The position numbers and the translations under genes are program-made. Source: Bolinopsis microptera (Eukaryota > Ctenophora > Tentaculata > Lobata > Bolinopsidae). From it: a DNA stretch of 64,000 nt. This document shows, piece by piece, positions 457 to 63,964 of this stretch. The stretch covers positions 22,357,779 through 22,421,778 of the forward strand of contig NC_087073.1 in assembly GCF_026151205.1 (NCBI RefSeq). Direction: 5' to 3'. The notes under the pieces were generated by a model. It was not told the DNA's origin, made no database searches, and saw only the letters and a list, made by a program, of their open reading frames with translations. How positions within the stretch are numbered: the stretch's first letter is position 1; each line of letters opens with the position of its first letter.

Positions 457-1832
457 CTGCCAGGATAGAGCAACAGTGGTACATACTATTCATTATGTGA
501 AAACGTAATTAGAGTGAGATATACCAAAAAAATATTGGATATAAATAATAAGTTTGTCAAAAAATGTAACCAATGAACTCCTTTAACATTCAAGGTATAT
601 AAAAAATTAAATATGTAATATAATAAAATTATTTTACTGCAATTATTGAACCTTAATCAATTAATTCCTTTCTGAATTGACAGCATGACAGAACAGTGCA
701 AGAAGAATCTGATTAATTATCTATTACAAGAATTACATTTTTGACTTTAATTCAATAGTAAAAACAGTACAAAACAACACCAAACATTACAAAGTGTTGA
801 AATTTATGCAATTTACAAAAACAAATGTTACTACACAATTTTATTCTTCCCTATTTACAAAAGTACATAAAACATATAAAACTAAAACTTTATTCAACAA
901 GGAAAATAAATAAAAAACTTATAATAATAATAATAATAAAATTTGGTAGCTTAAACACAAACTCTAAGCCCAGTGGATAAACCACAAAACCTATGCTCTA
1001 TTGTGTGAAACAAAGATACTAGATCAAGATGACTATCAAGGAGTGTATGCATAGGACATAAAAAGTTTTGGAACGAAGATGACATGCTTATGAAGCGAGC
1101 TAACAGTCTAATTGCTAATAAGTTCAAAAAGATCAAGACATTAGGTTGCATCCTAAACAGTTTAAGCAAATAACATAAAGTTATTTTGTCAATTAATCGC
1201 TTATGCCATAACTTTATCTGTACATTGTTTTGGAAATCATAACCAATCATATTATATCCAACAATATGATCTGATTTCAGACATGTCCTTTGTGTAATCG
1301 GCTGTGTAAATCGTTCCAAATTCAAAAAATTACATTATATTATATACAATATGTTAGTCGATTATTTCAGAAAACTTCTTGGCCACAGAGATGAACTGAT
1401 CAAAAAGCTCTACAGTTGACTTTTCCAGAGATTCATCACCAGAGTTCATATATAGTCCCATTTAAACGAGGACAGTGTAAGGTCAAATAATCAGTAGACC
1501 AAGAATCTTCCATATCTTTGATTGATTTTTTTGATACACTGTCAAGATGAACGATGTCAGTAATAAAGAGAAGCATAACAATTATCTTTATTTCCACCCT
1601 TTTGTGGCAAAAAAGCGATTTATAAATCTTTATTCCACTGGAAAGTATGAATAGGGTTATCTTTTGGGGATGCTTTTTGAAATTATTTGAAATTTTTTAA
1701 TAAAGTTGTAGTTAATAATTTATTAATTTTGGTGGTAAGATATTTATATTTTTCCATATAGTGATTTGATACTTTGTAGACATGTGTGATGATGTTATGT
1801 CATAATTTTTACTTTACTTTACTTTACTTTAC
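457..1832 (-). other. Probable intron / non-coding AT-rich stretch
   Basis: This 1.4-kb AT-rich stretch lies between two minus-strand open segments, and both bordering sites are phase 0. A short open segment at about 1364-1460 (minus) could encode the end of a small protein, but a stop lies directly before its ATG and I cannot support it. An open frame at 951-1325 (minus) has no recognisable domain. No other gene is seen. Confidence 0.35.
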
Positions 1833-10443: not shown

Positions 10444-10750
10444 AGCTGAAAAGAAGACAAGATTCTATTCTAATTTATTGATTATTATATTTATTGAAAT
10501 AAACATATAATATCCATTACTCCAGGAGAAAGCAATACCTGTTGACGAACTGGACCTAAACCTCGCACACACCACCAGCGATGAAGACAGGGGTGATGAT
10601 GTTGATGATGAAGATGAGGAAGTTGATGATGAGGTGGAGAATGTAGAGGAAGAGGTTTCAGAAGAGTGAGCTGAAAAGAAGACAAGATTCTATTCTAATT
10701 TATTGATTATTATATTTATTGAAATAAACATATAATATCCATTACTCCAG
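10301..10750 (+). repeat. 225-bp tandem duplication covering the ORF tail and poly(A) signal
   Basis: Two consecutive copies, 10301-10525 and 10526-10750, differ at very few positions. Each carries the acidic-tail codons, the stop, and a downstream AATAAA (near 10496 and its copy). The duplicated end shows a recent local duplication at the 3' edge of the retroelement fragment. Confidence 0.9.
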
Positions 10751-10849
10751 GAGTGATGACAGGATATATAAAAAAGTATAGGGAGGTCGACTAGCTTAAT
10801 AACCCTAGAAAATGTGGTCAAGATTTCAGATTGACAGTAAGCCATTAAA

Positions 10850-12598: not shown

Positions 12599-14665
12599 TC
12601 AGGATTCGTCAAATCCACTTTCAGCATCGTCTCCATCCCTACGATCGTCGTGATCTCTTGGTTCTCGGGGCTCAGCGTCTTCTCCGATTTGTAACAACAT
12701 ATCAATCTGTGGGGAATATTAAACATTATTTAACATACCGTGATTCCGCAGTTGCTGAAAAATATTTCAACGTAAATACTGTACTACCCATGCAATGGTA
12801 GATGATTCCAATATAAAAGACAACAAAGATTTTAATTCGAGTAAAATCTGTGATTTTCAATTGTTGGTGAAGTTTGCGGTTTACAAAGAACGGACATAGT
12901 TTATATTTAACGAACATACCTGTAAACATAAATCACCGATTGAGTCCTCATCCTCAATATTTAAAGGAACAAAATGTACCAAACTGTAATCGTCTAGTAG
13001 TCTGGCTAGAGCTCTTGATAAATTTGCGTGCCTAAATGAAGATTAGATCAATTTTGTTAAACAATTTTTTCACAATACATCAAAGTTAATTAAACTTTTG
13101 AAATTAAGACGTCTAAAATCACATTCACACTGTATATTAAAACTAAATCAAATTAAAATCGTTTCAACCCTGGCGCCTAAAATGTTGAAGTTTATTTTTG
13201 ACTTACTTTTTGTTAGTGGTCCGATGAAGAAAATCAGTCATGGTGTCCTCATTGGGATCAAGCCATCTTTCTAAAGAATCTCTGTCTTTCGTAGATAACA
13301 AATCAATCTGTAGGTAATAATAACATGGTGTTTACTGGGAAGGTGTTCCATCAAACGATAAAGTGCAATTCGATAATATTTTCTTACTCATGAAACAAAC
13401 ACCAGGAAACGCCATACACAGTGCGTCTAATCTAGATAAAAATATCAGATTTCATACAGTTTCATTTTCAAATTCTAAAAGGTGACCAAAAAACAAACCT
13501 TTGAGAGAACGTTAACATGCGGCAGATGAAGTTGCACCATAGCACTGAGTGCTGAACACATTCCAGCTATGAACTTGCTCGGTTCTACTAAGAACTGGGA
13601 GTCCAGCAAGTACACCGCACACACCCTGTAATAAACCATAACATAAAACCAATAATCTTCTCTAATAGCAGATCGTTAAATTGTAATCTGAGAATGAAAT
13701 CTGAGTCTCCGACGCAATAATTACCAAATGATGAATATAATATAGAAATATGATAATATGAAAAGCCCAAATACTTGTAGAACTATAATAACCTGATATC
13801 CCATTGCTCTAGGGTGGCGACAAAACGTCCCATTATGTCCAGGTGTGTATAAATCTCTATCTGACCGGGACAGTCTATAATAAAGTAATCATCGTCCACT
13901 TCACCCAAACATTCTTCCAACCAATGCGTGTTTTGGATCAAATATTCCATACAGAAGACTAAACCACCATTCGGACCAAACCTGCAAAATATACGGTTAG
14001 AATAGTGATTAAAATGTAAAACCATAATATGATCTGAGTTTAAGAACACACTAACTTAACACTAAAATAACCACAGAACACACTAACTTAACACTAAAAT
14101 AACCACAGAACACACTAACTTAACACTAAAATAACCACAGAACACACTAACTTAACACTAAAATAATCACAGAACACAATAATTTAACACTAAAATAACC
14201 ACAGAACACACTAACTTAAAACTAAAATAACCACAGAACACACTAACTTAACACTAAAATCATAGAACACACTAACTTAAAACTAAAATAACCACAGAAC
14301 ACACTAACTTAAAACTAAAATAACCACAGAACACACTAACTTAACACTAAAATCATAGAACACACTAACTTAACACTAAAATAACCACAGAACACACTAA
14401 CTTAACACTAAAATAACCACAGAACACGATAATTAAACACTAAAATAACCACAGACCTCAGCTCGTTATCCTCCATTACATCGTCCACAGATATGAGCTC
14501 TCTGATATCACACTGCACCGGATACTTAAAGTGCTCTGCAGCTGGGTCCATGTTGATACAGTGAACTTTGCGGCGCAGTGTCGCGTAATGCTGTTCCACA
14601 GTGTTGACATATGTTGATTTCCCAGCACCTGCTGGCCCCATTACCAGTTGTGCGTAGCGAGGCAT
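12599..14665 (-). CDS. GPN3: GPN-loop GTPase 3 (six exons)
   Basis: Exons on the minus strand: 14665-14457, 13981-13793, 13625-13499, 13307-13207, 13031-12920, 12706-12599. Every join has GT/AG ends and keeps phase, giving 281 residues, close to the roughly 284 of the human protein. The protein begins [18 protein letters not shown] (P-loop), has FGPNGG (GPN loop) at the exon 1/2 junction, DCPGQIE (Walker B/G3) and a VLSK-IDLL G4-type segment. It ends in an acidic, charged tail. GPN3 is an essential GTPase that works with GPN1 in assembly and nuclear import of RNA polymerase II. An AATAAA (12568-12563) follows the stop. Intron 1 is filled by a 32-bp tandem array that starts at the donor. Confidence 0.95.
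14045..14456. repeat. 32-bp tandem array in GPN3 intron 1
   Basis: About 13 copies of a 32-bp AT-rich unit, recognisable by CTAACTTAACACTAAAATA, with some shortened copies carrying AATCATAGAAC. On the gene strand the first intron bases (gtctgtggttattttag) are a diverged copy of the unit, so the array begins at position +1 of the intron. Confidence 0.95.
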
Positions 14666-40000: not shown

Positions 40001-43000
40001 GTGTACCACATAAAGAGAGAGGAGGTAACACATATCTAAGCAGGTATATGCGGTGTGTACCACATAAAGAGAGAGGAGGTAACACACATCTAACAGGTAT
40101 ATGCGGTGTGTACCACATAAAGAGAGAGGAGGTAACACACATCTAACAGGTATATGCGGTGTGTACCACATAAAGAGAGAGGAGGTAACACACATCTAAC
40201 AGGTATATGCGGTGTGTACCACATAAAGAGAGAGAAGGTAACACATATCTTGCAGGTATATGCGGTGTGTACCACATAAAGAGAGAGAAGGTAACACATA
40301 TCTTGCAGGTATATGCGGTGTGTACCACATAAAGAGAGAGAAGGTAACACATATCTTGCAGGTATATGCGGTGTGTACCACATAAAGAGAGAGGAGGTAA
40401 CACATATCTTGCAGGTATATGCGGTGTGTACCACATAAAGAGAGAGGAGGTAACACATATCTTGCAGGTATATGCGGTGTGTACCACATAAAGAGAGAGG
40501 ATGTAACACATATCTTGCAGGTATATGCGGTGTGTACCACATAAAGAGAGAGAAGGTAACACATATCTTGCAGGTATATGCGGTGTGTACCACATAAAGA
40601 GAGAGAAGGTAACACATATCTTGCAGGTATATGCGGTGTGTACCACATAAAGAGAGAGGAGGTAACACATATCTTGCAGGTATATGCGGTGTGTACCACA
40701 TAAAGAGAGAGGAGGTAACACATATCTTGCAGGTATATGCGGTGTGTACCACATAAAGAGAGAGGATGTAACACATATCTTGCAGGTATATGCGGTGTGT
40801 ACCACATAAAGAGAGAGAAGGTAACACATATCTTGCAGGTATATGCGGTGTGTACCACATAAAGAGAGAGAAGGTAACACATATCTTGCAGGTATATGCG
40901 GTGTGTACCACATAAAGAGAGAGAAGGTAACACATACCTTGCAGGTATATGCGGTGTGTACCACATAAAGAGAGAGAAGGTGACACATACCTTGCAGGTA
41001 TATGCGGTGTGTACCACATAAAGAGAGAGGAGGTAACACATATCTAACAGGTATATGCGGTGTGTACCACATAAAGAGAGAGGAAGGTAACACATTTCTT
41101 GCAGGTATATGCGGTGTGTACCACATAAAGAGAGAGAAGGTAACACACATCTAGCAGGTATATGCGGTGTGTACCACATAAAGAGAGAGAGGTAACACAT
41201 ATCTTGCAGGTATATGCGGTGTGTACCACATAAAGAGAGAGGAGGTAACACATATCTTGCAGGTATATGCGGTGTGTACCACATAAAGAGAGAGGAGGTA
41301 ACACATATCTTGCAGGTATATGCGGTGTGTACCACATAAAGAGAGAGAAGGTAACACATATCTTGCAGGTATATGCGGTGTGTACCACATAAAGAGAGAG
41401 GAAGGTAACACATATCTTGCAGGTATATGCGGTGTGTACCACATAAAGAGAGAGGAGGTAACACATATCTTGCAGGTATATGCGGTGTGTACCACATAAA
41501 GAGAGAGGAGGTAACACATATCTTGCAGGTATATGCGGTGTGTACCACATAAAGAGAGAGAGGTAACACATATCTTGCAGGTATATGCGGTGTGTACCAC
41601 ATAAAGAGAGAGGAGGTACACATATCTTGCAGGTATATGCGGTGTGTACCACATAAAGAGAGAGGAGGTAACACATATCTTGCAGGTATATGCGGTGTGT
41701 ACCACATAAAGAGAGAGGAGGTAACACATATCTTGCAGGTATATGCGGTGTGTACCACATAAAGAGAGAGGAGGTAACACATATCTTGCAGGTATATGCG
41801 GTGTGTACCACATAAAGAGAGAGGAGGTAACACATATCTTGCAGGTATATGCGGTGTGTACCACATAAAGAGAGAGGAGGTAACACATATCTTGCAGGTA
41901 TATGCGGTGTGTACCACATAAAGAGAGAGGAGGTAACACATATCTTGCAGGTATATGCGGTGTGTACCACATAAAGAGAGAGGAGGTAACACATATCTTG
42001 CAGGTATATGCGGTGTGTACCACATAAAGAGAGAGGAGGTAACACATATCTTGCAGGTATATGCGGTGTGTACCACATAAAGAGAGAGGAGGTAACACAT
42101 ATCTTGCAGGTATATGCGGTGTGTACCACATAAAGAGAGAGGAGGTAACACATATCTTGCAGGTATATGCGGTGTGTACCACATAAAGAGAGAGGAGGTA
42201 ACACATATCTTGCAGGTATATGCGGTGTGTACCACATAAAGAGAGAGGAGGTAACACATATCTTGCAGGTATATGCGGTGTGTACCACATAAAGAGAGAG
42301 GAGGTAACACATATCTTGCAGGTATATGCGGTGTGTACCACATAAAGAGAGAGGAGGTAACACATATCTTGCAGGTATATGCGGTGTGTACCACATAAAG
42401 AGAGAGGAGGTAACACATATCTTGCAGGTATATGCGGTGTGTACCACATAAAGAGAGAGGAGGTAACACATATCTTGCAGGTATATGCGGTGTGTACCAC
42501 ATAAAGAGAGAGGAGGTAACACATATCTTGCAGGTATATGCGGTGTGTACCACATAAAGAGAGAGGAGGTAACACATATCTTGCAGGTATATGCGGTGTG
42601 TACCACATAAAGAGAGAGGAGGTAACACATATCTTGCAGGTATATGCGGTGTGTACCACATAAAGAGAGAGGAGGTAACACATATCTTGCAGGTATATGC
42701 GGTGTTACCACATAAAGAGAGAGGAGGTAACACATATCTTGCAGGTATATGCGGTGTGTACCACATACAGAGAGAGGAGGTAACACATATCTTGCAGGTA
42801 TATGCGGGGTGTACCACATAAAGAGAGAGGAGGTAACACATATCTTGCAGGTATATGCGGTGTGTACCACATACAGAGAGAGGAGGTAACACATATCTTG
42901 CAGGTATATGCGGTGTGTACCACATACAGAGAGAGGAGGTAACACATATATTGCAGGTATATGCGGTGTGTACCACATAAAGAGAGAGGAGGTAACACAT

Positions 43001-46000
43001 ATCTTGCAGGTATATGCGGTGTGTACCACATAAAGAGAGAGGAGGTAACACATATCTTGCAGGTATATGCGGTGTGTACCACATAAAGAGAGAGGAGGTA
43101 ACACATATCTTGCAGGTATATGCGGTGTGTACCACATAAAGAGAGAGGAGGTAACACATATCTTGCAGGTATATGCGGTGTGTACCACATAAAGAGAGAG
43201 GAGGTAACACATATCTTGCAGGTATATGCGGTGTGTACCACATAAAGAGAGAGGAGGTAACACATATCTTGCAGGTATATGCGGTGTGTACCACATAAAG
43301 AGAGAGGAGGTAACACATATCTTGCAGGTATATGCGGTGTGTACCACATAAAGAGAGAGGAGGTAACACATATCTTGCAGGTATATGCGGTGTGTACCAC
43401 ATAAAGAGAGAGGAGGTAACACATATCTTGCAGGTATATGCGGTGTGTACCACATAAAGAGAGAGGAGGTAACACATATCTTGCAGGTATATGCGGTGTG
43501 TACCACATAAAGAGAGAGGAGGTAACACATATCTTGCAGGTATATGCGGTGTGTACCACATAAAGAGAGAGGAGGTAACACACATCTTGCAGGTATATGC
43601 GGTGTGTACCACATAAAGAGAGAGGAGGTAACACATATCTTGCAGGTATAAGGGGGTGTGTCCCCCCAAAGAAAAGGAGGTAAAAAATCTTTGGGGGCCC
43701 GGGGGGGGGGGGGGGCATATTTTCAAAGGGAAAATTTCGGTGTGGGACCACATAAAGAAGAGAGGGGGTAACACAATCTTTCAGGTAAATGGGGGTGGAA
43801 ACCCCAAAAGAGAGAGGGGGTAACAATATCTTGCAGGTAAAGCTGTGGGACCACATAAAGAGAGAGGAGGTAACAAAATCTTGGGGGTAATGGGTGTTTT
43901 ACCACAAAAAGGGGAGAGGGGTAAAACATTTCTTGCAGGTATTGCGGTGTGTCCCACATAAAGAAAAAGGGGGAGGTAAAAAAAATCTTGGGAGGTATAT
44001 CGGTGTGTACCAAAATAAAAGAGAGGGGGTAACACATAACTTGGGAGGGAAATGCGGTGGGGTACCACATAAAGAAGAGAGGGTTTAAAACAAAATCTTG
44101 GGAGGGAAAAAGGGGGTTGAAACCCCCTAAAGAGAGGGAAAGGGAACACATATCTTGCAGGTATATGCGGTGTGTACCACATAAAGAGAGAGGAGGTAAC
44201 ACATATCTTGCAGGTATATGCGGTGTGTACCACATAAAGAGAGAGGAGGTAACACATATCTTGCAGGTATATGCGGTGTGTACCACATAAAGAGAGAGGA
44301 GGTAACACATATCTTGCAGGTATATGCGGTGTGTACCACATACAGAGAGAGGAGGTAACACATATCTTGCAGGTATATGCGGTGTGTACCACATAAAGAG
44401 AGAGGAGGTAACACATATCTTGCAGGTATATGCGGTGTGTACCACATAAAGAGAGAGGAGGTAACACATATCTTGCAGGTATATGCGGTGTGTACCACAT
44501 AAAGAGAGAGGAGGTAACACATATCTTGCAGGTATATGCGGTGTGTACCACATAAAGAGAGAGAAGGTAACACATATCTTGCAGGTATATGCGGTGTGTA
44601 CCACATAAAGAGAGAGGAGGTAACACATATCTTGCAGGTATATGCGGTGTGTACCACATAAAGAGAGAGGAGGTAACACATATCTTGCAGGTATATGCGG
44701 TGTGTACCACATAAAGAGAGAGAGGTAACACATATCTTGCAGGTATATGCGGTGTGTACCACATAAAGAGAGAGGAGGTAAACACATATCTTGCAGGTAT
44801 ATGCGGTGTGTACCACATAAAGAGAGAGGAGGTAACACATATCTTGCAGGTATATGCGGTGTGTACCACATAAAGAGAGAGGAGGTAACACATATCTTGC
44901 AGGTATATGCGGTGTGTACCACATAAAGAGAGAGGAGGTAACACATATCTTGCAGGTATATGCGGTGTGTACCACATAAAGAGAGAGGAGGTAACACATA
45001 TCTTGCAGGTATATGCGGTGTGTACCACATAAAGAGAGAGGAGGTAACACACATCTTGCAGGTATATGCGGTGTGTACCACATAAAGAGAGAGGAGGTAA
45101 CACATATCTTGCAGGTATATGCGGTGTGTACCACATAAAGAGAGAGGAGGTAACACACATCTTGCAGGTATATGCGGTGTGTACCACATAAAGAGAGAGG
45201 AGGTAACACACATCTTGCAGGTATATGCGGTGTGTACCACATAAAGAGAGAGGAGGTAACACACATCTTGCAGGTATATGCGGTATGTACCACATAAAGA
45301 GAGAGGAGGTAACACACATCTTGCAGGTATATGCGGTGTGTACCACATAAAGAGAGAGGAGGTAACACACATCTTGCAGGTATATGCGGTGTGTACCACA
45401 TAAAGAGAGAGGAGGTAACACACATCTTGCAGGTATATGCGGTGTGTACCACATAAAGAGAGAGGAGGTAACACACATCTTGCAGGTATATGCGGTGTGT
45501 ACCACATAAAGAGAGAGGAGGTAACACATATCTTGCAGGTATATGCGGTGTGTACCACATAAAGAGAGAGGAGGTAACACACATCTTGCAGGTATATGCG
45601 GTGTGTACCACATAAAGAGAGAGGAGGTAACACATATCTTGCAGGTATATGCGGTGTGTACCACATAAAGAGAGAGAAGGTAACACATATCTTGCAGGTA
45701 TATGCGGTGTGTACCACATAAAGAGAGAGAAGGTAACACATATCTTGCAGGTATATGCGGTGTGTACCACATAAAGAGAGAGAAGGTAACACATATCTTG
45801 CAGGTATATGCGGTGTGTACCACATAAAGAGAGAGGAGGTAACACATATCTTGCTGTTACTACAAGATGGTAGGATCGTTATTGATGGGAACTACGCACA
45901 ATCTGTAATCTACAGACAGGGGGTGGGTTACAGTACATATCTTTACAATCAGTCAGTACTACACTGTTTGCCATTGACAATAAGTCAATAATTGTATGTT

Positions 46001-47486: not shown

Positions 47487-50400
47487 AAGAGTAATTTACA
47501 ATTATCGCACCGTTGTGGTACCAGTAATGAAGGAATTGACAATATGTCTGATTCAGAAAGTGAAGGAGTTGGATAGAAAACTAGAAAGTTACCAAACTAC
47601 AGACCTGTATTCCTCAATAAGTGAGCAAACTAGGATAGCTGAGCAGCTGGAAGAGAAGATTATAAAACAACTATGGGAACTAGAGGAACACATACTTAGA
47701 CTGTGAGTTTGTTTATTCTCTTATCTACTACATACTTTACTTAGACTGTGAGTTTGTTTATTCTCTTATCTACTACATACTTTACTTAGACTGTGAGTTT
47801 GTTTATTCTCTTATCTACTACATACTTTACTTAGACTGTGAGTTTGTTTATTCTCTTATCTACTACATACTTTACTTAGAATGTGAGTTTGTTTATTCTC
47901 TTATCTACTACATACTTTACTTAGACTGTGAGTTTGTTTATTCTCTTATCTACTACATACTTTACTTAGACTGTGAGTTTGTTTATTCTCTTATCTACTA
48001 CATACTTTACTTAGACTGTGAGTTTGTTTATTCTCTTATCTACTACATACTTTACTTAGACTGTGAGTTTGTTTATTCTCTTATCTACTACATACTTTAC
48101 TTAGACTGTGAGTTTGTTTATTCTCTTATCTACTACATACTTTACTTAGACTGTGAGTTTGTTTATTCTCTTATCTACTACATACTTTACTTAGACTGTG
48201 AGTTTGTTTATTCTCTTATCTACTACATACTTTACTTAGACTGTGAGTTTGTTTATTCTCTTATCTACTACATACTTTACTTAGACTGTGAGTTTGTTTA
48301 TTCTCTTATCTACTACATACTTTACTTAGACTGTGAGTTTGTTTATTCTCTTATCTACTACATACTTTACTTAGACTGTGAGTTTGTTTATTCTCTTATC
48401 TACTACATACTTTACTTAGACTGTGAGTTTGTTTATTCTCTTATCTACTACATACTTTACTTAGACTGTGAGTTTGTTTATTCTCTTATCTACTACATAC
48501 TTTACTTAGACTGTGAGTTTGTTTATTCTCTTATCTACTACATACTTTACTTAGACTGTGAGTTTGTTTATTCTCTTATCTACTACATACTTTACTTAGA
48601 CTGTGAGTTTGTTTATTCTCTTATCTACTACATACTTTACTTAGACTGTGAGTTTGTTTATTCTCTTATCTACTACATACTTTACTTAGACTGTGAGTTT
48701 GTTTATTCTCTTATCTACTACATACTTTACTTAGACTGTGAGTTTGTTTATTCTCTTATCTACTACATACTTTACTTAGACTGTGAGTTTGTTTATTCTC
48801 TTATCTACTACATACTTTACTTAGACTGTGAGTTTGTTTATTCTCTTATCTACTACATACTTTACTTAGACTGTGAGTTTGTTTATTCTCTTATCTACTA
48901 CATACTTTACTTAGACTGTGAGTTTGTTTATTCTCTTATCTACTACATACTTTACTTAGACTGTGAGTTTGTTTATTCTCTTATCTACTACATACTTTAC
49001 TTAGACTGTGAGTTTGTTTATTCTCTTATCTACTACATACTTTACTTAGACTGTGAGTTTGTTTATTCTCTTATCTACTACATACTTTACTTAGACTGTG
49101 AGTTTGTTTATTCTCTTATCTACTACATACTTTACTTAGACTGTGAGTTTGTTTATTCTCTTATCTACTACATACTTTACTTAGACTGTGAGTTTGTTTA
49201 TTCTCTTATCTACTACATACTTTACTTAGACTGTGAGTTTGTTTATTCTCTTATCTACTACATACTTTACTTAGACTGTGAGTTTGTTTATTCTCTTATC
49301 TACTACATACTTTACTTAGACTGTGAGTTTGTTTATTCTCTTATCTACTACATACTTTACTTAGACTGTGAGTTTGTTTATTCTCTTATCTACTACATAC
49401 TTTACTTAGACTGTGAGTTTGTTTATTCTCTTATCTACTACATACTTTACTTAGACTGTGAGTTTGTTTATTCTCTTATCTACTACATACTTTACTTAGA
49501 CTGTGAGTTTGTTTATTCTCTTATCTACTACATACTTTACTTAGACTGTGAGTTTGTTTATTCTCTTATCTACTACATACTTTACTTAGACTGTGAGTTT
49601 GTTTATTCTCTTATCTACTACATACTTTACTTAGACTGTGAGTTTGTTTATTCTCTTATCTACTACATACTTTACTTAGACTGTGAGTTTGTTTATTCTC
49701 TTATCTACTACATACTTTACTTAGACTGTGAGTTTGTTTATTCTCTTATCTACTACATACTTTACTTAGACTGTGAGTTTGTTTATTCTCTTATCTACTA
49801 CATACTTTACTTAGACTGTGAGTTTGTTTATTCTCTTATCTACTACATACTTTACTTAGACTGTGAGTTTGTTTATTCTCTTATCTACTACATACTTTAC
49901 TTAGACTGTGAGTTTGTTTATTCTCTTATCTACTACATACTTTACTTAGACTGTGAGTTTGTTTATTCTCTTATCTACTACATACTTTACTTAGACTGTG
50001 AGTTTGTTTATTCTCTTATCTACTACATACTTTACTTAGACTGTGAGTTTGTTTATTCTCTTATCTACTACATACTTTACTTAGACTGTGAGTTTGTTTA
50101 TTCTCTTATCTACTACATACTTTACTTAGACTGTGAGTTTGTTTATTCTCTTATCTACTACATACTTTACTTAGACTGTGAGTTTGTTTATTCTCTTATC
50201 TACTACATACTTTACTTAGACTGTGAGTTTGTTTATTCTCTTATCTACTACATACTTTACTTAGACTGTGAGTTTGTTTATTCTCTTATCTACTACATAC
50301 TTTACTTAGACTGTGAGTTTGTTTATTCTCTTATCTACTACATACTTTACTTAGACTGTGAGTTTGTTTATTCTCTTATCTACTACATACTTTACTTAGA

Positions 50401-53400
50401 CTGTGAGTTTGTTTATTCTCTTATCTACTACATACTTTACTTAGACTGTGAGTTTGTTTATTCTCTTATCTACTACATACTTTACTTAGACTGTGAGTTT
50501 GTTTATTCTCTTATCTACTACATACTTTACTTAGACTGTGAGTTTGTTTATTCTCTTATCTACTACATACTTTACTTAGACTGTGAGTTTGTTTATTCTC
50601 TTATCTACTACATACTTTACTTAGACTGTGAGTTTGTTTATTCTCTTATCTACTACATACTTTACTTAGACTGTGAGTTTGTTTATTCTCTTATCTACTA
50701 CATACTTTACTTAGACTGTGAGTTTGTTTATTCTCTTATCTACTACATACTTTACTTAGACTGTGAGTTTGTTTATTCTCTTATCTACTACATACTTTAC
50801 TTAGACTGTGAGTTTGTTTATTCTCTTATCTACTACATACTTTACTTAGACTGTGAGTTTGTTTATTCTCTTATCTACTACATACTTTACTTAGACTGTG
50901 AGTTTGTTTATTCTCTTATCTACTACATACTTTACTTAGACTGTGAGTTTGTTTATTCTCTTATCTACTACATACTTTACTTAGACTGTGAGTTTGTTTA
51001 TTCTCTTATCTACTACATACTTTACTTAGACTGTGAGTTTGTTTATTCTCTTATCTACTACATACTTTACTTAGACTGTGAGTTTGTTTATTCTCTTATC
51101 TACTACAAATAACATCTCAGGTATCTCTAGAATATGTTCGTCACAATTTGTGGAGCACAATTGTTGCAGACTTTTGGATTTGTCACATATTATAAATCTG
51201 CATTTTATTGCTTGTGATATTGTATAGAATAGAGGCAAACTACGCGATACAAAATTCTTTGAGTTTTTAACATAATTGAATATGAATATAACAAATTAAA
51301 GTTAATGAACTGCAAGCTTTTGTTTTCGGTTGCACAAATTGTTTTGACGGTGATTAAAAGCAAGGCAAGTAAGATCCGAAAGTGAAACCAGTTTTGTGAC
51401 TTTTCAAAATAATTTGCGGGTTGAGAATCTCTCACAAACTCCCTATTTTGTTGTTTGTATCGTTATCAGTTTATTTCGTTGCTCAGACTATAAATAAGAG
51501 GATGATTATTGAACCATCTTATGAAAATAGTTGGCTGCGTGTAATATTACTTGTTGAGGAACTTGTATGTGTTTACAGTGATAAAGAGAAACAAGACTAT
51601 GGAGCTGGCAGTGAACAGTGTAGAGAACTGGAGATCCAACTTGAGGTTTGTTTTCTTATTTCCGTAAATTTTGTCCGTATTTTCATATCTGGTTAGACTC
51701 GGCGATGGAGTTGTTCTTACAAATAGAACATCTTGTGTTTGTGAATGAAGTTTAACTGTGAAATCTCAACAACCTGTTATTTGATGTTTCTTTATACGCT
51801 TTTCTATTGAATATTACTTCTTACTTACTACTTACGTCATTAAAGACCGATTAGTGCCTAATTAAAACTGCCCACCAGAGTAAATGTGTAGCGCTATCAG
51901 CAGATCAGAAACACTACGATGTAGCCTTACAATACATCAGAACGAGAACAGCTGACCTGTTCGACTACAATATGCTCACTGAACAGTTCGATGACTTGTT
52001 AAATGTGAGTAAAGCTAATACCGGTACGGACTACGGCTTATACCGGTTAATAGATGGGACAACTTTTGAATTGTCTCTGACCAGCTGAATGATCATAGTG
52101 ATAACAGTATCTTACAAGGGTAAGTGATACAGGTCTAAATGTGATATATAATACTGGTGATGGGTCATGTACCCTCTCAGTATCTTACAAGTAAACACTG
52201 CAGGCAATGTTCCGGGGAGAGAGTGGTAATGATATTGAGAATCAGCTGGAGGATATGTTAGATGAAGCTGAGGAATCAGAAAGACAACACGTGACCTCCC
52301 TTCATATCGAGGAAAGGATCTGGGAAATATCAAGGTAGCTGCAATCTTATTATTGGGGAGGGGGTGGAGGTACGGAAAAATATCAAGGTAGCTGCAATTT
52401 TATTATTGGGGAGCCCGAGGGGTGGAGGTACGGGGAAATATCAAGGTAGCTGCAATCTTATTATTGGGGAGGGGTGGAGGTACGGGGAAATATCAAGGTA
52501 GCTGCAATCTTATTATTGTGGGGGGGGGGGGGGGGGGGGGGTCGGGGTGGAGGTACGGGGATTATAGTTCTTATTTTTGCCATTATGATATATATACAGC
52601 CCTTTAAGGAATCTCTTTTACAGGGTATAAATGAGAAACTGTTGCTAGCGCTGAACAAGTGGAGCTCTTTAGAAAGTAAGGGATACACGAGCGAACAACG
52701 TGAATCCCTGGGAAAACAAGCTAGAGGTCTTATCGTTCAGACTATTGATGTGAGTTACACTTTCATTCTTTTAGAAAGTGCACAAATTAACAGGTACTTA
52801 CTGGAAAGAAAAATCGTGACTTATGCTATCTAATGACTCTGATCTGACTTTGTTATGTAAAGGACATCCTGTCAGACAAGTAATCCATAATATTCAGGAG
52901 TTGGTAGCACTAGAAACTATCTTGAAGCAGTACGAGGACTATCAATCTGAAGATCAGTGCATTGTGAAACTCATCCAGTTCATCAACATCTCTAAAGAAG
53001 AGAGCGTCCTACAAAATGTACTAAATATTACGACAGATGACCCTAACCAGATGTTTGAAGGAAGTGAGGGGGTGGGTGACGGCGTTGATACCATCATGTT
53101 CTGTCAGACTTGTACAAGACGTATTGAACAGTGGGTCTATGAAAAGTTCAGGATCAAGGTAAAGTTGTGACCCCCCCTCCCCCCTTCTTCTCTCCCTTGT
53201 TCCCTTGTTACCCAGTAATATGTGATCAGCTGATTTGACTAACTGTAGTTTTTAAAAAGGAAGGTCAGGAGAAGTTGACAGCGTTACAAAAAGTAGTTTA
53301 TGAAGCGAAAATGAAGTTAAAACAGGAGAGAAGGGGTCTTATAGAGTCCTGGTTCACAGTAAGTTTATAAGATGTCTTTTAAACATACTTTATCAGGATA

Positions 53401-56400
53401 ATGTTTAACTTATCTGACTACAGTAACTTTTCGTAATTTCTGTTGAAATTTGTTCCTTTTTATCAACTTTTTCTCCAAACAGGAGCACGTTGGTGAGTTT
53501 GAGAGGGAGAACACAGTCATATCTGTACAAAGTAATAATCAGTCAAATGGAAATCCTGTGCAGACAAATGATGTGGACCAGTCATCTGAGCCAGTAAGTA
53601 TTTTGGTAAAATCATCAATTTTCATGTCAGTATCGCGCGAACTACAAAAAATATTGAATTGTTCAAAGTACTCTGTTTTATATCCACTAAAATTTAATCG
53701 CGCGCGAATTACGCAAAGAGATGTATGAATTGTTCTAGCAAGGCACGCAACCCTTAATAATGCTGTTAGTTGTTACCATGGTAACCACGCAACAATTAAC
53801 AGCGATACGGCAAATCTCTTAATCTCCTTCAGTTTAATTGAGCTCTTGAAAATCTAAATACATTTTATTTCTTCAATAGGCTGCATTATATAATACAAAG
53901 GAGGTTTTTAAAATATATTCTACACTAATGTATTTTAATTTACTGTTTTATTTAATTAATTGAATGGGTTTAAATATTGTTATTTGTTAAGGGTGTCTAC
54001 TGTCTAACCTTATAACCGGACATTGACCATTACTGAAGTTATCTGTGAAATTGAATATTGTTTGAATCCTTTTACTGTCATTAATTTGATTTTAGCATTA
54101 CGGGAAAACAAAACATACACCTAAAATAAAAGTGCACGACAATTTCCAGGAAAAAACGACATCGGAAGTGGGTATGGTGGAGTCATATACTCAGATTGCA
54201 GCCAGGGTACAAGCCTGGGAGAAGAAATCAGATTTAGACGTCATACGGGCAGAACTAGAATTACAGGTATAGTATATAGGTACCTGTAGGTACTATACAG
54301 GTATTATACAGGTATAGTCAATAGTAGTATAGCGCTCTTTCTACAGCTTAATTCATTGAGCATGTTGGATAAATCATTATGTCATTGACTTCCCATATGA
54401 AGTGAGGCAACATTGAGAAAATTATTTCTGCAACTCAGGATAAAATGAGAGCCCGACGGAGAAGACAACGACACCAGCGTGCTCAGAAGTTGATTGAAGT
54501 TCAGACACCTACCACACAAAATACGGTATAAGCCAAGATGTTTCAATGTGATGAAGTATCCGGACTTTGTTATTTAGAAGTTACTGAACTTGATCAACTT
54601 AATCTATAAAATATTTTGGTCGTTATGACATATCTAATTTATTTAGTTGTTCTTGCAATAGTGTTACCACTCCAGTCCTTCCCTACATTTCTGGGATGTT
54701 AGATTAAACACTGCTGAGTATAAGTTTTATCTTAAAAGTAGTGTTATTAAACTTCAGTTTATTATTATTGATACTACTTAAATTATATTGTATTTATAGT
54801 TACAGCCTGTATCTGTTGGTAGCTGACATTTTTTTTTCTGACTTCAGATATTAAGTTCATTCTATCTGGCCTTAATTATTGAATCAGCCGTCAGGGTTAT
54901 GTTATGCTTTTTAATAATCTGTTCGCTTTTGTTCTATGATTTTTACATTTCTAGGATGATTACAAATTCGAGAGTTAGAATTAAGCTCTTTTATCATGCG
55001 ACTATTTCTATTTTGTAAATATCCATGAACTTTTTGTATCTAACATAACTAAGAAATGTCGACTTTCTTCAAAAAGAAATTGTTGCCAAACCATGTTCGA
55101 CTGTGCGCTGCCAAACCATGTTCCTTGACCTTGTTTATATCCAATTTCCAAAACTAATAAAATTTGGAAATTGTTTGTCAGTATTATGGTTGAACACGCC
55201 CAAGGGAGTGTCTGGAAGTGAAAAAGGATTAAAAAGTATATCATAAACTATATCATGTATATGCCCCTCGGGGAAATTACATCCCTTGCATACGCAAGAA
55301 TTTTAATACTATTTAAAATGTTGGAGCAAGATTTTAATATCGTGGGCTGGAGAGGAGCAGGGGCAGGTAAATCGAAATTAATAAATTAGATCACATTTTG
55401 TGGGTGATTGCCGTGTTGGCCACGGCTCCCAACAGTCACGTGACCAAGGAGCCAGGCGTCTGGGTGCTGGGTAACGGAGCGTGTTACCATGGTAACAGTC
55501 ATGTGACTTTATTAGACGTGGTGACAGACATTGTCCTCACTGCTTTCAGATATCCGCCCAGGCTTGTTGGGATCAATGTCCAAACTGTCAAGCTTTTGTT
55601 CATAGCAAGTTGTTTAATTGAGTATTTCATTTCCTGTTATCAAAATCTTGATGATGATTGTAATTTCTGATCAGTTCCCACAATCTGCTTTCATCATAAT
55701 TGAGCTGCATATTAACCAATTAAGACTATAAGCGTAGAATAAGACCGTCCACCATCTGTAATAGCATTGGTTTTGGTAAAAACGGCGACTGCCTAAGGTA
55801 AAGCCGTAGTACATACTAAGTCATGCTAAGATATCGCCGATAATGAATTTAAAATTGACTTATTTAGAATCAGGTTCGGAGTTGCGAATGTATTTGCTCG
55901 AATAAAATATAATAGAACTATAATAACTCATGACTACATAAACTCATTAGCTAATCATGATGTCATTTTAGTTTTCCCTCATAAAGTACAATAAAGGTCA
56001 GCAATATAAACAACCTACAAAATCAGTAACTGCTTGTCAAATCCGCGAGCAAATTAATCGATATGTTACCCCGGACCTAATATCAGTGTTCAATCTAATC
56101 CAGCAAAAACAGCATACATTTTGAGTGGGCCACCAGTTCTTAGTATTTCTCGGATTGGATCAACTTATGAAACGCATGGGTAGCTTTTGGTCCGATAAAT
56201 CTTTTAAAGTTAGTTTTGTTTTCTCATTGGCTCCTAAGCTGTTCGTGATGTTATCAGTATCTGAAAAGTCTCGCTATACTACTATAATTTAAAATTGTTA
56301 AAGTGCCTTTTAGCCAACGAGCAGCTTTTATCATAATTTAGCTTCCCGGTATGTTTTATCAGTCGTGTTATATTGCCGAATGATGCTGGTCTCTCATTGA

Positions 56401-59400
56401 GATCTCATTCATCCAAAATTAATGATAAAACTGGTGACACTGACAGTGACGGAAAATTTAAGAAGCCTGGGGTCGGATGACACGGGCTGCAAAAGCGGGG
56501 ACTTTGTACCCTACTATCACTGATAGTGGGGTACAAAGTACTAGTAGAGTGATCGCTAGTTTCGTGTGATTTACAGGTTTTTGAGGAAGGTGAGAACATC
56601 TGATTGGGAGCTAAGTGGTTAAGCTGTTGGTGGTGGCACAGATTGGGTTCCTTCAAAGAGGGCTGACCTGGGAGAATGCGAATTATTTCGATTGGATAGA
56701 ATATCAAAGACTGCAATGCGAGTTTATAAGTTTTGTCGTTTTGATCGATTATCTAAATGTCTAGTTTTCAGTAATTTGAAAACTGAAACGTCAGTTTGTT
56801 CTTACCGTATATTTTTGAATGCTCCACTCTTCGACTCAAAGCTCAGTCCTTCATTGATTTTCTGCACTATTATCCCGGAGTATTACACTGTTACAACCCC
56901 TCTGTAACACCCCCTCTGTAACACCCCTCTGTAACACTCCCTCTGTAACACCCCCTCTGTAACACCCCATCTGTATTACCCCCTCTGTAACACCTCATCT
57001 GTAACACCCCTCTATAACACTCCCTATGTAACACCCCATCTGTATTACCCCCTCTGTAACACCTCATCTGTAACACCCCTTCTGTAACACTCCCTCTGTA
57101 ACACTCCCTCTGTAACACCCCATCTGTATTACCCCCTCTGTAACACCTCATCTGTAACACCCCTCTATAACACTCCCTATGTAACACCCCATCTGTATTA
57201 CCCCCTCTGTAACACCTCATCTGTAACACCCCTCTATAACACTCCCTATGTAACACCCCATCTGTATTACCCCCTCTGTAACACCTCATCTGTAACACCC
57301 CTTCTATAACACTCCCTCTGTAACACTCCCTCTGTAACACCCCCTCTGTAACACCCCTCTGTAACACCCCCTCTGTAACACCCCCTCTGTAATACCCCCT
57401 TTGTAACACTCCCTCTGTAACACCCCCTCTGTAACACTCCCTCTGTAACACCCCCTCTGTAACACCCTCTCTGTAACACCCCCTCCGTAACAACCCCTCT
57501 GTAACACCCCCTCTGTAGCACCCCCTCTGTAACACTCCCTCTGTAACACTCCCTCTGTAACACTCCCTCTGTAACACTCCCTCTGTAACACTCCCTCTGT
57601 AACACTCCCTCTGTAACACCCCCTCTGTAACACTCCCTATATAACACCCCCTCCGTAACAACCCCTCTGTAACACCCCCTCTGTAACACTCCCTCTGTAA
57701 CACCCCCTCTGTAACACCCCCTCTGTAACACCCCCTCTGTAACACTCCCTATATAACACCCCCTCCGTAACAACCCCTCTGTAACACCCCCTCTGTAGCA
57801 CCCCCTCTGTAACACCCCTCTGTAACACTCCCTCTGTAACACTCCCTCTGTAACACTCCCTCTGTAACACCCCCTCTGTAACACTCCCTATATAACACCC
57901 CCTCCGTAACAACCCCTCTGTAACACCCCCTCTGTAGCACCCCCTCTGTAACACTCCCTCTGTAACACTCCCTCTGTAACACCCCCTCTGTAACACCCCC
58001 TCTGTAACACTCCCTCTGTAACACCCCCTCTGTAACACTCTCTCTGTAACACCTCATCTGTAACACTCCCTCTGTAACACTCCCTCTGTAACACCCCCTC
58101 TGTAACACTCCCTTTGTAACACTCCCTCTGTAACACCCCCTCTGTAACACCCCCTCTGTAACACTCCCTCTGTAACACCCCTCTGTAACACCCCCTCTGT
58201 AACACCCCCTCTGTAACACCTCATCTGTAACACCCCTTCTATAACACTCCCTCTGTAACACTCCCTCTGTAACACCCCCTCTGTAACACCCCTCTGTAAC
58301 ACCCCCTCTGTAACACCCCCTCTGTAATACCCCCTTTGTAACACTCCCTCTGTAACACCTCATCTGTAACCATCCCTCTGTAACACCCCCTCTGTAACAC
58401 CCCTCTGTAACACCCCCTCTGTAACACTCCCTCTGTAACACCCCCTCTGTAACACTCCCTCTGTAACACCCCCTCTGTAACACCCTCTCTGTAACACCCC
58501 CTCTGTAACAACCCCTCTGTAACACCCCCTCTGTAGCACCCCCTCTGTAACACTCCCTCTGTAACACTCCCTCTGTAACACTCCCTCTGTAACACTCCCT
58601 CTGTAACACTCCCTCTGTAACACTCCCTCTGTAACACCCCCTCTGTAACACTCCCTATATAACACCCCCTCCGTAACAACCCCTCTGTAACACCCCCTCT
58701 GTAACACTCCCTCTGTAACACCCCCTCTGTAACACCCCCTCTGTAACACCCCCTCTGTAACACTCCCTATATAACACCCCCTCCGTAACAACCCCTCTGT
58801 AACACCCCCTCTGTAGCACCCCCTCTGTAACAACCCCTCTGTAACACTCCCTCTGTAACACTCCCTCTGTAACACTCCCTCTGTAACACCCCCTCTGTAA
58901 CACTCCCTATATAACACCCCCTCCGTAACAACCCCTCTGTAACACCCCCTCTGTAGCACCCCCTCTGTAACACTCCCTCTGTAACACTCCCTCTGTAACA
59001 CCCCCTCTGTAACACCCCCTCTGTAACACTCCCTCTGTAACACCCCCTCTGTAACACTCTCTCTGTAACACCTCATCTGTAACACTCCCTCTGTAACACT
59101 CTCTCTGTAACACCCCCTCTGTAACACTCCCTTTGTAACACTCCCTCTGTAACACCCCCTCTGTAACACCCCCTCTGTAACACTCCCTCTGTAACACCCC
59201 TCTGTAACACCCCCTCTGTAACACCCCCTCTGTAACACTCCCTCTGTAACACCCCTCTGTAACACCCCCTCTGTAACACCCCCTCTGTAACACCCCCTCT
59301 GTAACACTCCCTCTGTAACACCCCCTTCAAAGAAAGATGATGTTTAGTGAACAAGACAGCTACTGTGGTATGATAGATAACTACCAGGAGCAGACTACTG

Positions 59401-59943: not shown

Positions 59944-62900
59944 AGTCCTAACAGTGACGTCACTGTGACGTCACTGTGTCCTAGTAGTGACGCCACTGTG
60001 TCCTAGCAGTGACGCCACTGTGTCCTAGCAGTGTGTCCTAGTAGTGACGCCACTGTGTCCTAGTAGTGACGCTACTGTGTCCTAGTAGTGACGCCACTGT
60101 GTCCTAGTAATGACGCCACTGTGTCCTAGTAGTGACGCCACTGTGTCCTAGTAGTGACGCCACTGTGTCCTAGTAGTGACGCCACTGTGTCCTAGTAGTG
60201 ACGCCAATGTGTCCTAGTAGTGACGCCACTGTGTCCTAGTAGTGACGCCACTGTGTCCTAGTAGTGACGCCACTGTGTCCTAGTAGTGACACCACTGTGT
60301 CCTAACAGTGACGCCACTGTGTCCTAGTAGTGACGCCACTGTGTCCTAGCAGTGACGCCACTGTGACGTCACTGTGACGCCACTGTGTCCTAGCAGTGAC
60401 GCCACTGTGACCTAGCAGTGACGTCACTGTGTCCTAGCAGTGACGCCACTGTGTCCTAGCAGTGACGCCACTGTGTCCTAGCAGTGACGCCACTGTGTCC
60501 TAGCAGTGACGCCACTGTGTCCTAGCAGTGACGCCACTGTGTCCTAGTAGTGACGCCACTGTGTCCTAGTAGTGACGCCACTGTGTCCTAGTAGTGACGC
60601 CACTGTGTCCCAGTAGTGACGTCACTGTGACGTCACTGTGTCCTAGCAGTGACGCCACTGTGTCCTAGTAGTGACGCCACTGTGTCCTAGTAGTGACGCC
60701 ACTGTGTCCTAGTAGTGACGCCACTGTGTCCTGGTAGTGACGCCACTGTGTCCTAGTAGTGACGCCACTGTGTCCTAGTAGTGACGCCACTGTGTCCTAG
60801 CAGTGACGCCACTGTGTCCTAGCAGTGACACCACTGTGTCCTAGCAGTAACGCCACTGTGTCCTAGCAGTGACGTCACTGTGACGTCACTGTGACGCCAC
60901 TGTGTCCTAGCAGTGACGCCACTGTGTCCTAGTAGTGACGCCACTGTGTCCTAGTAGTGACGCCACTGTGTCCTAGTAGTGACGCCACTGTGTCCTAGTA
61001 GTGACGCCACTGTGTCCTAGTAGAGACGCCACTGTGTCCTAGTAGTGACGCCACTGTGTCCTAACAGTGACGCCACTGTGTCCTAGTAGTGACGCCACTG
61101 TGTCCTAGTAGTGACGTCATTGTGACGTCACTGTGACGCCACTGTGTCCTAGCAGTGACGCCACTGTGTCCTAGCAGTGACGTCACTGTGTCCTAACAGT
61201 GACGACACTGTGTCCTAGTAGTGACGTCACTGTGACGTCACTGTGACGCCACTGTGTCCTAGCAGTGACGCCACTGTGTCCTAGCAGTGACGCCACTGTG
61301 TCCTAGTAGTGACGCCACTGTGTCCTAGTAGTGACGCCACTGTGTCCTAGCAGTGACGCCACTGTGTCCTAGCAGTGACGCCACTGTGTCCTAGCAGTGA
61401 CGCCACTGTGTCCTAGCAGTGACGCCACTGTGTCCTAGCAGTGACGCCACTGTGTCCTAACAGTGACGACACTGTGTCCTAGTATAGCCACTGTGTCCTA
61501 GCAGTGACGTCACTGTGTCCTAGCAGTGACGTCACTGTGTCCTAGTAGTGACGCCACTGTGTCCTAACATTGACGCCACTGTGTCCTAGTATAGCCACTG
61601 TGTCCTAACAGTGACGTCACTGTGTCCTAGCAGTGACGTCACTGTGTCCTAGTAGTGACGCCACTGTGTCCTAGTAGTGACGCCACTGTGTCCTAGCAGT
61701 GACGCCACTGTGTCCTAGCAGTGACGCCACTGTGTCCTAGCAGTGACGTCACTGTGACGTCACTGTGACACCACTGTGTCCTAGCAGTGACGCCACTGTG
61801 TCCTAGCAGTGACGCCACTGTGTCCTAGTAGTGACGCCACTGTGTCCTAGTAGTGACGCCACTGTGTCCTAGTAGTGACGCCACTGTGTCCTAGTAGTGA
61901 CGCCACTGTGTCCTAACAGTGACGCCACTGTGTCCTAGTAGTGACGCCACTGTGTCCTAGTAGTGACGTCACTGTGACGTCACTGTGACGCCACTGTGTC
62001 CTAGCAGTGACGCCACTGTGTCCTAGTAGTGACGCCACTGTGTCCTAGTAGTGACGCAACTGTGTCCTAGTAGTGACGTCACTGTGACGTCACTGTGACG
62101 CCACTGTGTCCTAGCAGTGACGCCACTGTGTCCTAGCAGTGACGTCACTGTGTCCTAACAGTGACGACACTGTGTCCTAGTATAGCCACTGTGTCCTAGC
62201 AGTGACGTCACTGTGTCCTAGCAGTGACGTCACTGTGTCCTAGTAGTGACGCCACTGTGTCCTAACATTGACGCCACTGTGTCCTAGTATAGCCACTGTG
62301 TCCTAACAGTGACGTCACTGTGTCCTAGCAGTGACGTCACTGTGTCCTAGTAGTGACGCCACTGTGTCCTAGTAGTGACGCCACTGTGTCCTAGCAGTGA
62401 CGCCACTGTGTCCTAGCAGTGACGCCACTGTGTCCTAGCAGTGACGTCACTGTGACGTCACTGTGACACCACTGTGTCCTAGCAGTGACGCCACTGTGTC
62501 CTAGCAGTGACGCCACTGTGTCCTAGTAGTGACGCCACTGTGTCCTAGTAGTGACGCCACTGTGTCCTAGTAGTGACGCCACTGTGTCCTAGTAGTGACG
62601 CCACTGTGTCCTAACAGTGACGCCACTGTGTCCTAGTAGTGACGCCACTGTGTCCTAGTAGTGACGTCACTGTGACGTCACTGTGACGCCACTGTGTCCT
62701 AGCAGTGACGCCACTGTGTCCTAGTAGTGACGCCACTGTGTCCTAGTAGTGACGCAACTGTGTCCTAGTAGTGACGTCACTGTGACGTCACTGTGACGCC
62801 ACTGTGTCCTAGCAGTGACGCCACTGTGTCCTAGCAGTGACGCCACTGTGTCCTAGTAGTGACGCCACTGTGTCCTAGTAGTGACGCCACTGTGTCCTAG

Positions 62901-63199
62901 TAGTGACGCCACTGTGTCCTAGCAGTGACGCCACTGTGTCCTAGCAGTGACGCCACTGTGTCCTAGCAGTGACGCCACTGTGTCCTAGCAGTGACGCCAC
63001 TGTGTCCTAGCAGTGACGCCACTGTGTCCTAACAGTGACGACACTGTGTCCTAGTATAGCCACTGTGTCCTAGCAGTGACGTCACTGTGTCCTAGCAGTG
63101 ACGTCACTGTGTCCTAGTAGTGACGCCACTGTGTCCTAGTAGTGACGCCACTGTGTCCTAACAGTGACGCCACTGTGTCCTAGTATAGCCACTGTGTCC
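59944..63199 (+). repeat. 22-bp minisatellite array (GTGACGCCACTGTGTCCTAG core)
   Basis: About 145 units. Variants carry GTGACGTCACTG, containing the CRE octamer TGACGTCA, often doubled as GTGACGTCACTGTGACGTCA. A block of about 700 bp (near 61480-62090) is repeated almost exactly at about 62165-62770, so the array has higher-order duplications. It follows the donor at 59899 by 45 bp. Confidence 0.97.
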
Positions 63200-63349
63200 T
63201 AGCCCTTGTTATTAATTGCTAAGTCGTCACCACGCGGGAGAAATGAGGAGAAAGCTACAATAGCGCTTACAACAACAACAAAACAGTAACGCGTAGAAAC
63301 CAACTTCAGATCCTATAACCGAGATAATAACCACAACTCATCGTTTTTT
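63200..63349 (+). other. Unique spacer between arrays
   Basis: 150 bp of unique sequence between the 22-bp array and the second 14-bp array, ending in a T-run and TAG that could be a splice acceptor at 63352. Confidence 0.4.
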
Positions 63350-63362
63350 TAGTTACGAGACA

Positions 63363-63957
63363 CCTGTAACACCCCCTCTGTAACACCCCCTCTGTAACAC
63401 CCCCTCTGTAACACCCCCTCTGTAACACCCTCTCTGTAACACCCCCTCTGTAACACCCCCTCTGTAACACCCCCTCTGTAACACCCCCTCTGTAACACCC
63501 CTTCTGTAATACCCCCTCTGTAACACCCCCTCTGTAACACCCCCTCTGTAACACTCCCTCTGTAACACCCCCTCTGTAACACCCCCTCTGTAACACCCCC
63601 TCTGTAACATCCCCTCTGTAACACCCCTCTGTAATACTCCATCTGTAACACCCCCTCTGTAACACCCCCTATGTAACACCCCCTCTGTAACACCCTCTCT
63701 GTAACACCCCCTCTGTAACACCCCCTCTGTAACACCCCCTCTGTAACACCACCTCTGTAACACCCCCTCTGTAACACCCCCTCTGTAACACCCCCTCTGT
63801 AACACCCCCTCTGTAACACCCCTCTGTAACACCCCCTCTGTAACACTCCCTCTGTAACACTCTCTCTGTAACACTCCCTCTGTAACACTCCCTCTGTAAC
63901 ACCCCCTCTGTAACACCCCCTCTGTAACACCCCCTCTGTAACACTCCCTCTGTAAAA
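63363..63957 (+). repeat. 14-bp minisatellite array 2, flanked by 13-bp direct repeats
   Basis: About 42 units of CCCCCTCTGTAACA, the same unit as array 1. TAGTTACGAGACA occurs just before it (63350-63362) and just after it (63962-63974). Confidence 0.95.
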
Positions 63958-63964
63958 CCCCTAG

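Follow-up and report, generated by a model that had tools for sequence, protein, structure and literature searches.

In amphioxus, minisatellite-like tandem repeats called mirages lie across exon-intron boundaries at the 5' and 3' ends of introns. Their units measure 10–160 bp, many contain AG/GT, and regular splicing together with length instability is reported (PMC3087553; PMC3902484). Mirage genes are Adh3, troponin C, globin BflGb6/BflGb9 and PGBD5, troponin C and PGBD5 having been added by one of these accounts (PMC3902484). A 64,000-nucleotide stretch of the genome of the ctenophore Bolinopsis microptera (NC_087073.1, positions 22,357,779 to 22,421,778; hereafter the window) holds a gene in which a 45-bp tandem array spans a splice donor. 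Arrays of this kind were examined in the window and in conserved genes elsewhere in the assembly. Judged from their sequence, the B. microptera arrays appear to have mirage anatomy, a phenomenon of a kind already known in another animal. They are most likely mirage-type minisatellites that arise by random tandem duplication in a repeat-rich genome and are not started by donors.

The likeness to amphioxus concerns both the unit and its position. The unit includes the end of an exon and its splice site (in the array at 47693-51107, nine further donor arrays and five acceptor arrays), and both boundary types are affected, here 15 of 350 donors and 6 of 356 acceptors. Unlike the amphioxus cases, the B. 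microptera arrays come from many genes in a single sample, one donor array having about 75 junction copies and one acceptor array 112 units, and they probably represent another lineage. While the amphioxus work reports regular splicing, anatomy alone was compared here, in a single assembly; continuity of a protein domain across five of eight introns is consistent with undisturbed splicing.

Two further systems are related. The human gene 6-16 (G1P3/IFI6) reportedly contains a minisatellite, described by Turri et al. in 1995, that gives multiple splice donor sites. Repetition of a splice donor by a minisatellite is common to both organisms. By the title of that work, several donors serve the human transcript, whereas in B. 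microptera the exon-nearest site alone seems to be used. Intron gain in ATP2A1 (Hellsten) and in potato RdRp (PMC4974935) likewise involves tandem duplication around AG/GT or across an intron-exon boundary. Those duplications create a new intron between the copies, whereas here an existing intron seems to have been lengthened at one end. A search of one open-access library for ctenophores and minisatellites found nothing related, which is no proof of absence.

Junction-spanning arrays at both ends of introns

The 45-bp array begins 10 nt inside an exon and spans the donor at 47702/47703 (a slash marks the exon-intron junction). Its unit is composed of the last 10 exon bases, the donor and intron bases, and TACTTAGACT (exon) followed by GTGAGTTTG (intron) is repeated along the array. 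The 19-mer containing the donor occurs 75 times, and the proposed donor has its last 10 exon bases and the downstream intron bases in common with about 74 other copies. The array makes up 3405 of the 3877 bases of the intron, and one of the 45 unit positions varies. The donor scores 2.90, where the 5th and 25th percentiles of sampled donors are 1.66 and 4.15. Its phase agrees with an acceptor at 51579/51580 in a manual reading; a hidden Markov model (HMM) used the same donor with an exon start at 51559 instead. The gene at 47.5-54.5 kb has no Pfam family and its best PDB match has E = 0.52. A dispersed satellite was rejected as an explanation of this array and of a 52-bp array further downstream, as each unit matched its own locus only in the genome, in a DNA search that skips very common words.

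The assembly comprises 264.65 Mb in 232 contigs, of which 13 large contigs sum to 258.07 Mb (97.5%). Junctions were sampled from dynein heavy chain genes (15 stretches of 10 kb, with one intronless copy as reference) and from the surroundings of kinesin and myosin exons (99 short stretches on many contigs). The latter cover 99 of 109 kinesin and 71 of 73 myosin matches; two single-frame kinesin genes and ten apparent second copies, recognized by position and score, were left out. A small HMM, trained on the dynein loci and guided by protein or domain hints, supplied the exon and intron calls; the sample consensus is nAG/GTAAGT at donors and CAG/G at acceptors. For a dynein junction to be counted its exon had to be 60 nt or longer; in kinesin and myosin genes and in the replication sample below, the exon had to be 30 nt or longer and overlap a domain match. 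An array was called spanning if its Tandem Repeats Finder (TRF) score was at least 70 and it covered the third exon base from the junction.

By this definition the 15 donors and 6 acceptors given above are spanned. Arrays cover positions 40 nt into the intron at 28/350 junctions on the donor side and 23/356 on the acceptor side, and positions 60 nt into the exon at 1/350 and 0/356. Coverage at -60, -3 and +40 is 0.3%, 4.3% and 8.0% on the donor side and 0%, 1.7% and 6.5% on the acceptor side. Deep in dynein introns, 20% of bases lie in arrays. Junction-copying arrays are real, genome-wide and present at both intron ends; they are not a quirk of the window. Among the donor cases, one myosin exon ends in a 40-bp unit (31 exon and 9 intron bases) with 22 identical copies, and kinesin donors carry arrays of 35 bp x 25, 33 bp x 52 and 53 bp x 8. 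Kinesin acceptors carry arrays of 26 bp x 112, 49 bp x 26-29 and 21 bp x 24. Unit lengths of ten donor arrays studied in detail are multiples of three in five cases (45, 33, 30, 18 and 21) and not in the other five (40, 35, 53, 65 and 32), with no clear preference for units that keep the frame.

One kinesin gene (C12:14428085-14435561; L027-L029, L118, L119) has different spanning arrays at neighbouring junctions. Its 26-bp x 112 array ends 3 nt past an acceptor, and its 33-bp x 52 array begins 26 nt before a donor. In a dynein gene (L014, position 3076) an array of about 230 copies of a 19-bp unit begins one base ahead of the donor and takes up 4.4 kb of the 4.75-kb intron.

Nine stretches were joined, and eight of the joined stretches hold a whole array-bearing intron between sampled exons. 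The ninth (L066-L067) was dropped from the following comparison, since its array-bearing intron lies upstream of the stretch. An intron might be born as the array itself when a coding segment holding AGGT is tandemly duplicated (the Rogers / Hellsten model). Although some units are mostly exon (31/40, 30/35 and 53/65 bases), a single array at both junctions was seen in none of the eight introns; the spanning array touches one junction and non-repeat intron is left beside it. Birth by array was rejected for these introns, the same repeat standing at both ends in 0/8, and we regard this model as highly improbable.

Across five of the eight introns the kinesin domain coordinates are continuous without inserted residues (222-265 to 263-326; 1-74 to 62-101; 75-116 to 112-148; 172-220 to 226-262; 245-294 to 293-327). 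The exon-nearest splice sites therefore fit the protein, and splicing presumably still uses them, judging from domain continuity and reading frame. In the other three introns 23 to 58 profile positions are absent between the matched exons, and therefore an exon probably lies between them.

These eight introns also bear on whether the arrays could be an artefact of gene models or assembly, which we consider improbable. Array edges and non-repeat flanks were read through in all eight, and the sampled exons are tied to conserved dynein, kinesin and myosin domains on many contigs. On the other side, assembly is difficult for arrays of near-identical copies, the exon ends are predictions of a small self-trained HMM, and two of the 15 spanning donors are doubtful and may be mispredicted exons (L010 at 489, L013 at 6454).

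Conservation of the repeated splice signals

The repeated signals might be kept by selection, for recursive splicing or as decoys or buffers. In ten donor and five acceptor arrays GT or AG is present in every aligned copy; GT is unchanged at 406/406 and AG at 336/336 aligned copy positions, against change elsewhere of 1.9% and 3.3% (pooled P 0.001 and 4e-5). Few unit positions vary, however, and once the junction was slid around each unit the conservation of GT and AG was ordinary (combined P 0.99 and 0.94). It was therefore discarded as a signal, and selection on the copies is the least probable of the explanations considered.

Placement of arrays relative to donors and acceptors

The original prediction, made from the letters of the window, had proposed that tandem repeats nucleate at 5' splice sites, and that introns grow by duplication anchored at the exon-intron junction. 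Duplication would then begin preferentially at donors, for instance by way of microhomology among GTAAGT-like motifs, U1-bound nascent RNA or co-transcriptional R-loops. Arrays in which the donor is copied up to about 75 times are in its favour. The presence of the same kind of arrays at acceptors is not.

Recurrence of the junction 20-mer within 150 bp was compared with that of 20-mers 40-80 nt inside introns. The test misses some TRF arrays (e.g. L028) and so underestimates recurrence both at junctions and in interiors. Recurrence was found at 11/350 donors and 6/356 acceptors, compared with 49/1030 (donor control) and 48/1043 (acceptor control) intron interiors and 4/1400 exon interiors. 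Donor junctions thus do not recur above the intron interior, their rate being lower (P 0.23), and acceptors fall below it (P 0.011). With a score of at least 70, array edges 10-29 nt inside the intron comprise 10 starts from donors and 12 ends from acceptors; on the exon side (-30 to -5) there are 10 edges at donors and 4 at acceptors.

A replication sample of 30 further stretches (about 33 had been planned) was counted by rules fixed before the sequences were retrieved. It contains 31 of 67 AAA_6 matches, lying outside the earlier stretches, and 16 of 45 UCH matches, all hand-picked short exon-like hits; UCH genes proved poor for junction sampling, many matches being single open frames. None of 44 donors and one of 47 acceptors had a spanning array, and array edges lay near 1 donor and 4 acceptors. 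The junction 20-mer recurred at 0/44 donors and 1/47 acceptors, with 0/129 and 11/132 in the respective interiors. Pooled over both samples, recurrence is 11/394 at donors against 49/1159 in the interior (P 0.23), and 7/403 at acceptors against 59/1175 (P 0.004).

Several observations weigh against an origin of the arrays that is indifferent to donors. Spanning is more frequent at donors than at acceptors (P = 0.047; 0.11 without the two doubtful cases; 15/394 against 7/403, P 0.086, when pooled with the replication). Donor-side coverage shows a slight hump between +20 and +60, with 8.0% at +40, 5.4% at +100 and 8.8% at +180; it is stronger in the kinesin/myosin half of the sample (9.4% at +20 and +40, 4.7% at +120) and does not appear on the acceptor side. 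When 49 arrays of the dynein loci were placed at random in their own loci (1000 shuffles), 11 starts near donors compared with 3.7 expected and 12 ends near acceptors with 3.6, values reached in 0/1000 shuffles; donor-spanning arrays numbered 5 against 1.7 expected (19/1000 reach this) and acceptor-spanning arrays 1 against 1.6. Re-placement within introns, with 30 exon bases allowed, gave 12 donor edges against 7.5 expected (P 0.03-0.04), and P was 0.005 with no exon bases allowed and 0.014 with 45. Protein domains and a self-trained HMM, and not transcripts, underlie the exon-intron models themselves.

The whole-locus shuffle was not taken as decisive because present-day intron lengths are the product of the arrays themselves. 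That edges are three times as frequent as expected near donors and acceptors alike may reflect introns that were short before the arrays grew. Since arrays have lengthened their introns, re-placement within introns is the fairer test; in it 33 arrays were shrunk to two copies and re-placed in their own shrunken introns, among 222 complete introns. With 30 exon bases allowed, donor-spanning arrays numbered 6 against 3.2 expected (P 0.09), acceptor edges 8 against 7.4 and acceptor-spanning arrays 1 against 3.2. Among arrays scoring at least 120 there were 8 donor edges where 4.8 were expected (P 0.065), and 5 arrays spanned donors where 2.1 were expected (P 0.04). On the exon side, array starts at 14/350 donors compare with array ends at 6/356 acceptors (P 0.07).

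The proposed comparison of repeat starts at donors with acceptors and with shuffled positions thus came out mostly against nucleation, and left a weak donor excess (P 0.005 to 0.09 by setting). The coverage hump speaks mildly for a donor effect. Nucleation at donors is not supported; the mild donor bias left over is unproven. Donor-anchored nucleation is unlikely as an account of the arrays. Were a modest donor bias real, which we doubt, transcription-coupled events at 5' splice sites would seed duplications and introns would grow preferentially from their 5' ends.

Other features of the window

Five donors in the window had been described as directly followed by tandem repeats, and in three of them the unit was said to include the exon end together with the donor. 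Three of the five are borne out, at 47702/47703, minus 14457/14456 and 54266/54267. Of the three said to combine exon end and donor in the unit, one is clear, at 47703; those at 54267 and 52335 are not. The features are listed in Table 1.

Table 1. Coordinates of exons and tandem repeats discussed in the window.
Feature	Position	Strand	Remarks
Coding exon (from first ATG of open frame)	47527..47702	+	Ends at donor ACT/GTGAGT; HMM exon 47557-47702
45-bp tandem array, 75.9 copies	47693..51107	+	TRF; 99% matches
Next coding exon	51580..51645	+	Manual reading, phase-compatible with donor 47702; HMM preferred 51559-51645
52-bp tandem array, 3.8 copies	52322..52527	+	TRF; surrounds proposed donor 52334/52335
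Coding exon	54195..54266	+	Predicted; ends at donor TTACAG/GTATAGT, score 5.41
Short degenerate repeat	54267..54315	+	Extra ACAGGTAT motifs at 54297 and 54308
First coding exon, GPN-loop GTPase gene	14457..14665	-	Donor 14457/14456, score 5.89
Second coding exon, GPN-loop GTPase gene	13793..13981	-	Joined by hand to the first exon for the Pfam match
32-bp tandem array, 13.1 copies	14043..14455	-	TRF; begins at second intron base
GTAAA pentamers	1808..1832	-	TRF; adjoining proposed donor 1833/1832

The 32-bp repeat beside the donor at minus 14456 was confirmed by the array start and donor score in Table 1. The array makes up 413 of the 475 bases of its intron, and its unit does not include the exon end. 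The two exons, joined by hand, match Pfam PF03029 (1.1e-46), and the gene at minus 14665-13793 is one we take to be GPN3-like. At 54267 the donor scores well and ACAGGTAT recurs, but the TRF array proper (54288-54315, 11-bp unit) begins only at the 22nd intron base. The 52-bp array is real; its proposed donor at 52334/52335 scores 4.44, but the reading frame it leaves is closed by a stop among the first three codons of the exon that follows (52624), a phase conflict. A phase-compatible alternative GT at 52290/52291 scores poorly (1.44), and if it were used the array would begin 32 bases into the intron. The donor proposed at minus 1833/1832, beside the GTAAA pentamers, is not supported, with a score of -0.16, below the 5th percentile of sampled donors, and an in-frame TAA within the pentamers.

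Contig C2 ends about 0.6 Mb from the window, which holds further repeats. An 11-kb array at 34865-45854 has a 53-bp unit with a donor-like GAG/GTAACA and an acceptor-like CTTGCAG/GTAT. A 14-bp unit, CTGTAACACCCCCT, forms two arrays flanking a 3.2-kb array of 22/44-bp units (56888-59326, 59965-63203, 63364-63961). At 10301-10753 a 225-bp tandem duplication (99% matches) lies within an open frame encoding an acidic stretch.

In the sampled families, two dynein heavy chain genes (C3:8952495 and C1:6101794; L001) are long single open frames of 3357 and 3703 aa; some 15 more dynein heavy chain genes have many exons. Single open frames also occur in several UCH genes. These single-frame dynein and UCH genes may be either retro-copies or old intronless genes.

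Discussion

Repetition at the same point in several genes had seemed hard to ascribe to chance. In the dynein sample arrays make up 20% of the bases deep in introns, so that some are expected at donors by chance. What stands of the original prediction is that introns grow by arrays, some of which copy the junction, and that this happens genome-wide; nucleation or anchoring at 5' splice sites is not supported. Counting repeat starts near donors without controls for acceptors and for intron length before expansion produces a false nucleation signal.

Random tandem duplication, which we favour, would proceed as follows. Short tandem duplications would arise throughout introns and would then expand by unequal exchange or slippage; in the junction-spanning arrays studied, the units measure about 18-65 bp. 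Selection would purge arrays from exons, where they are rare. When a unit straddles a junction, the exon-nearest copy would keep the coding bases and a working splice site, and further copies would become intron. At a donor the first copy would stay beside the whole exon, at an acceptor the last, the remainder becoming intron in either case. Such a duplication may be tolerated since splicing could go on at the exon-nearest site, and the junction could be multiplied at 5' and 3' splice sites alike because copies beyond that site become intron. Donors may tolerate duplication better than acceptors; this would agree with the order of transcription, in which the first donor leaves the polymerase ahead of its copies and additional acceptors come before the true one.

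If it is true that a few percent of donors and acceptors in conserved genes carry tandem copies of themselves, the B. microptera genome would offer many natural experiments in spliceosomal choice among identical sites. Transcripts from this species could test first-come, exon-definition and branch-point-scanning rules directly. The finding would also extend mirages beyond amphioxus.

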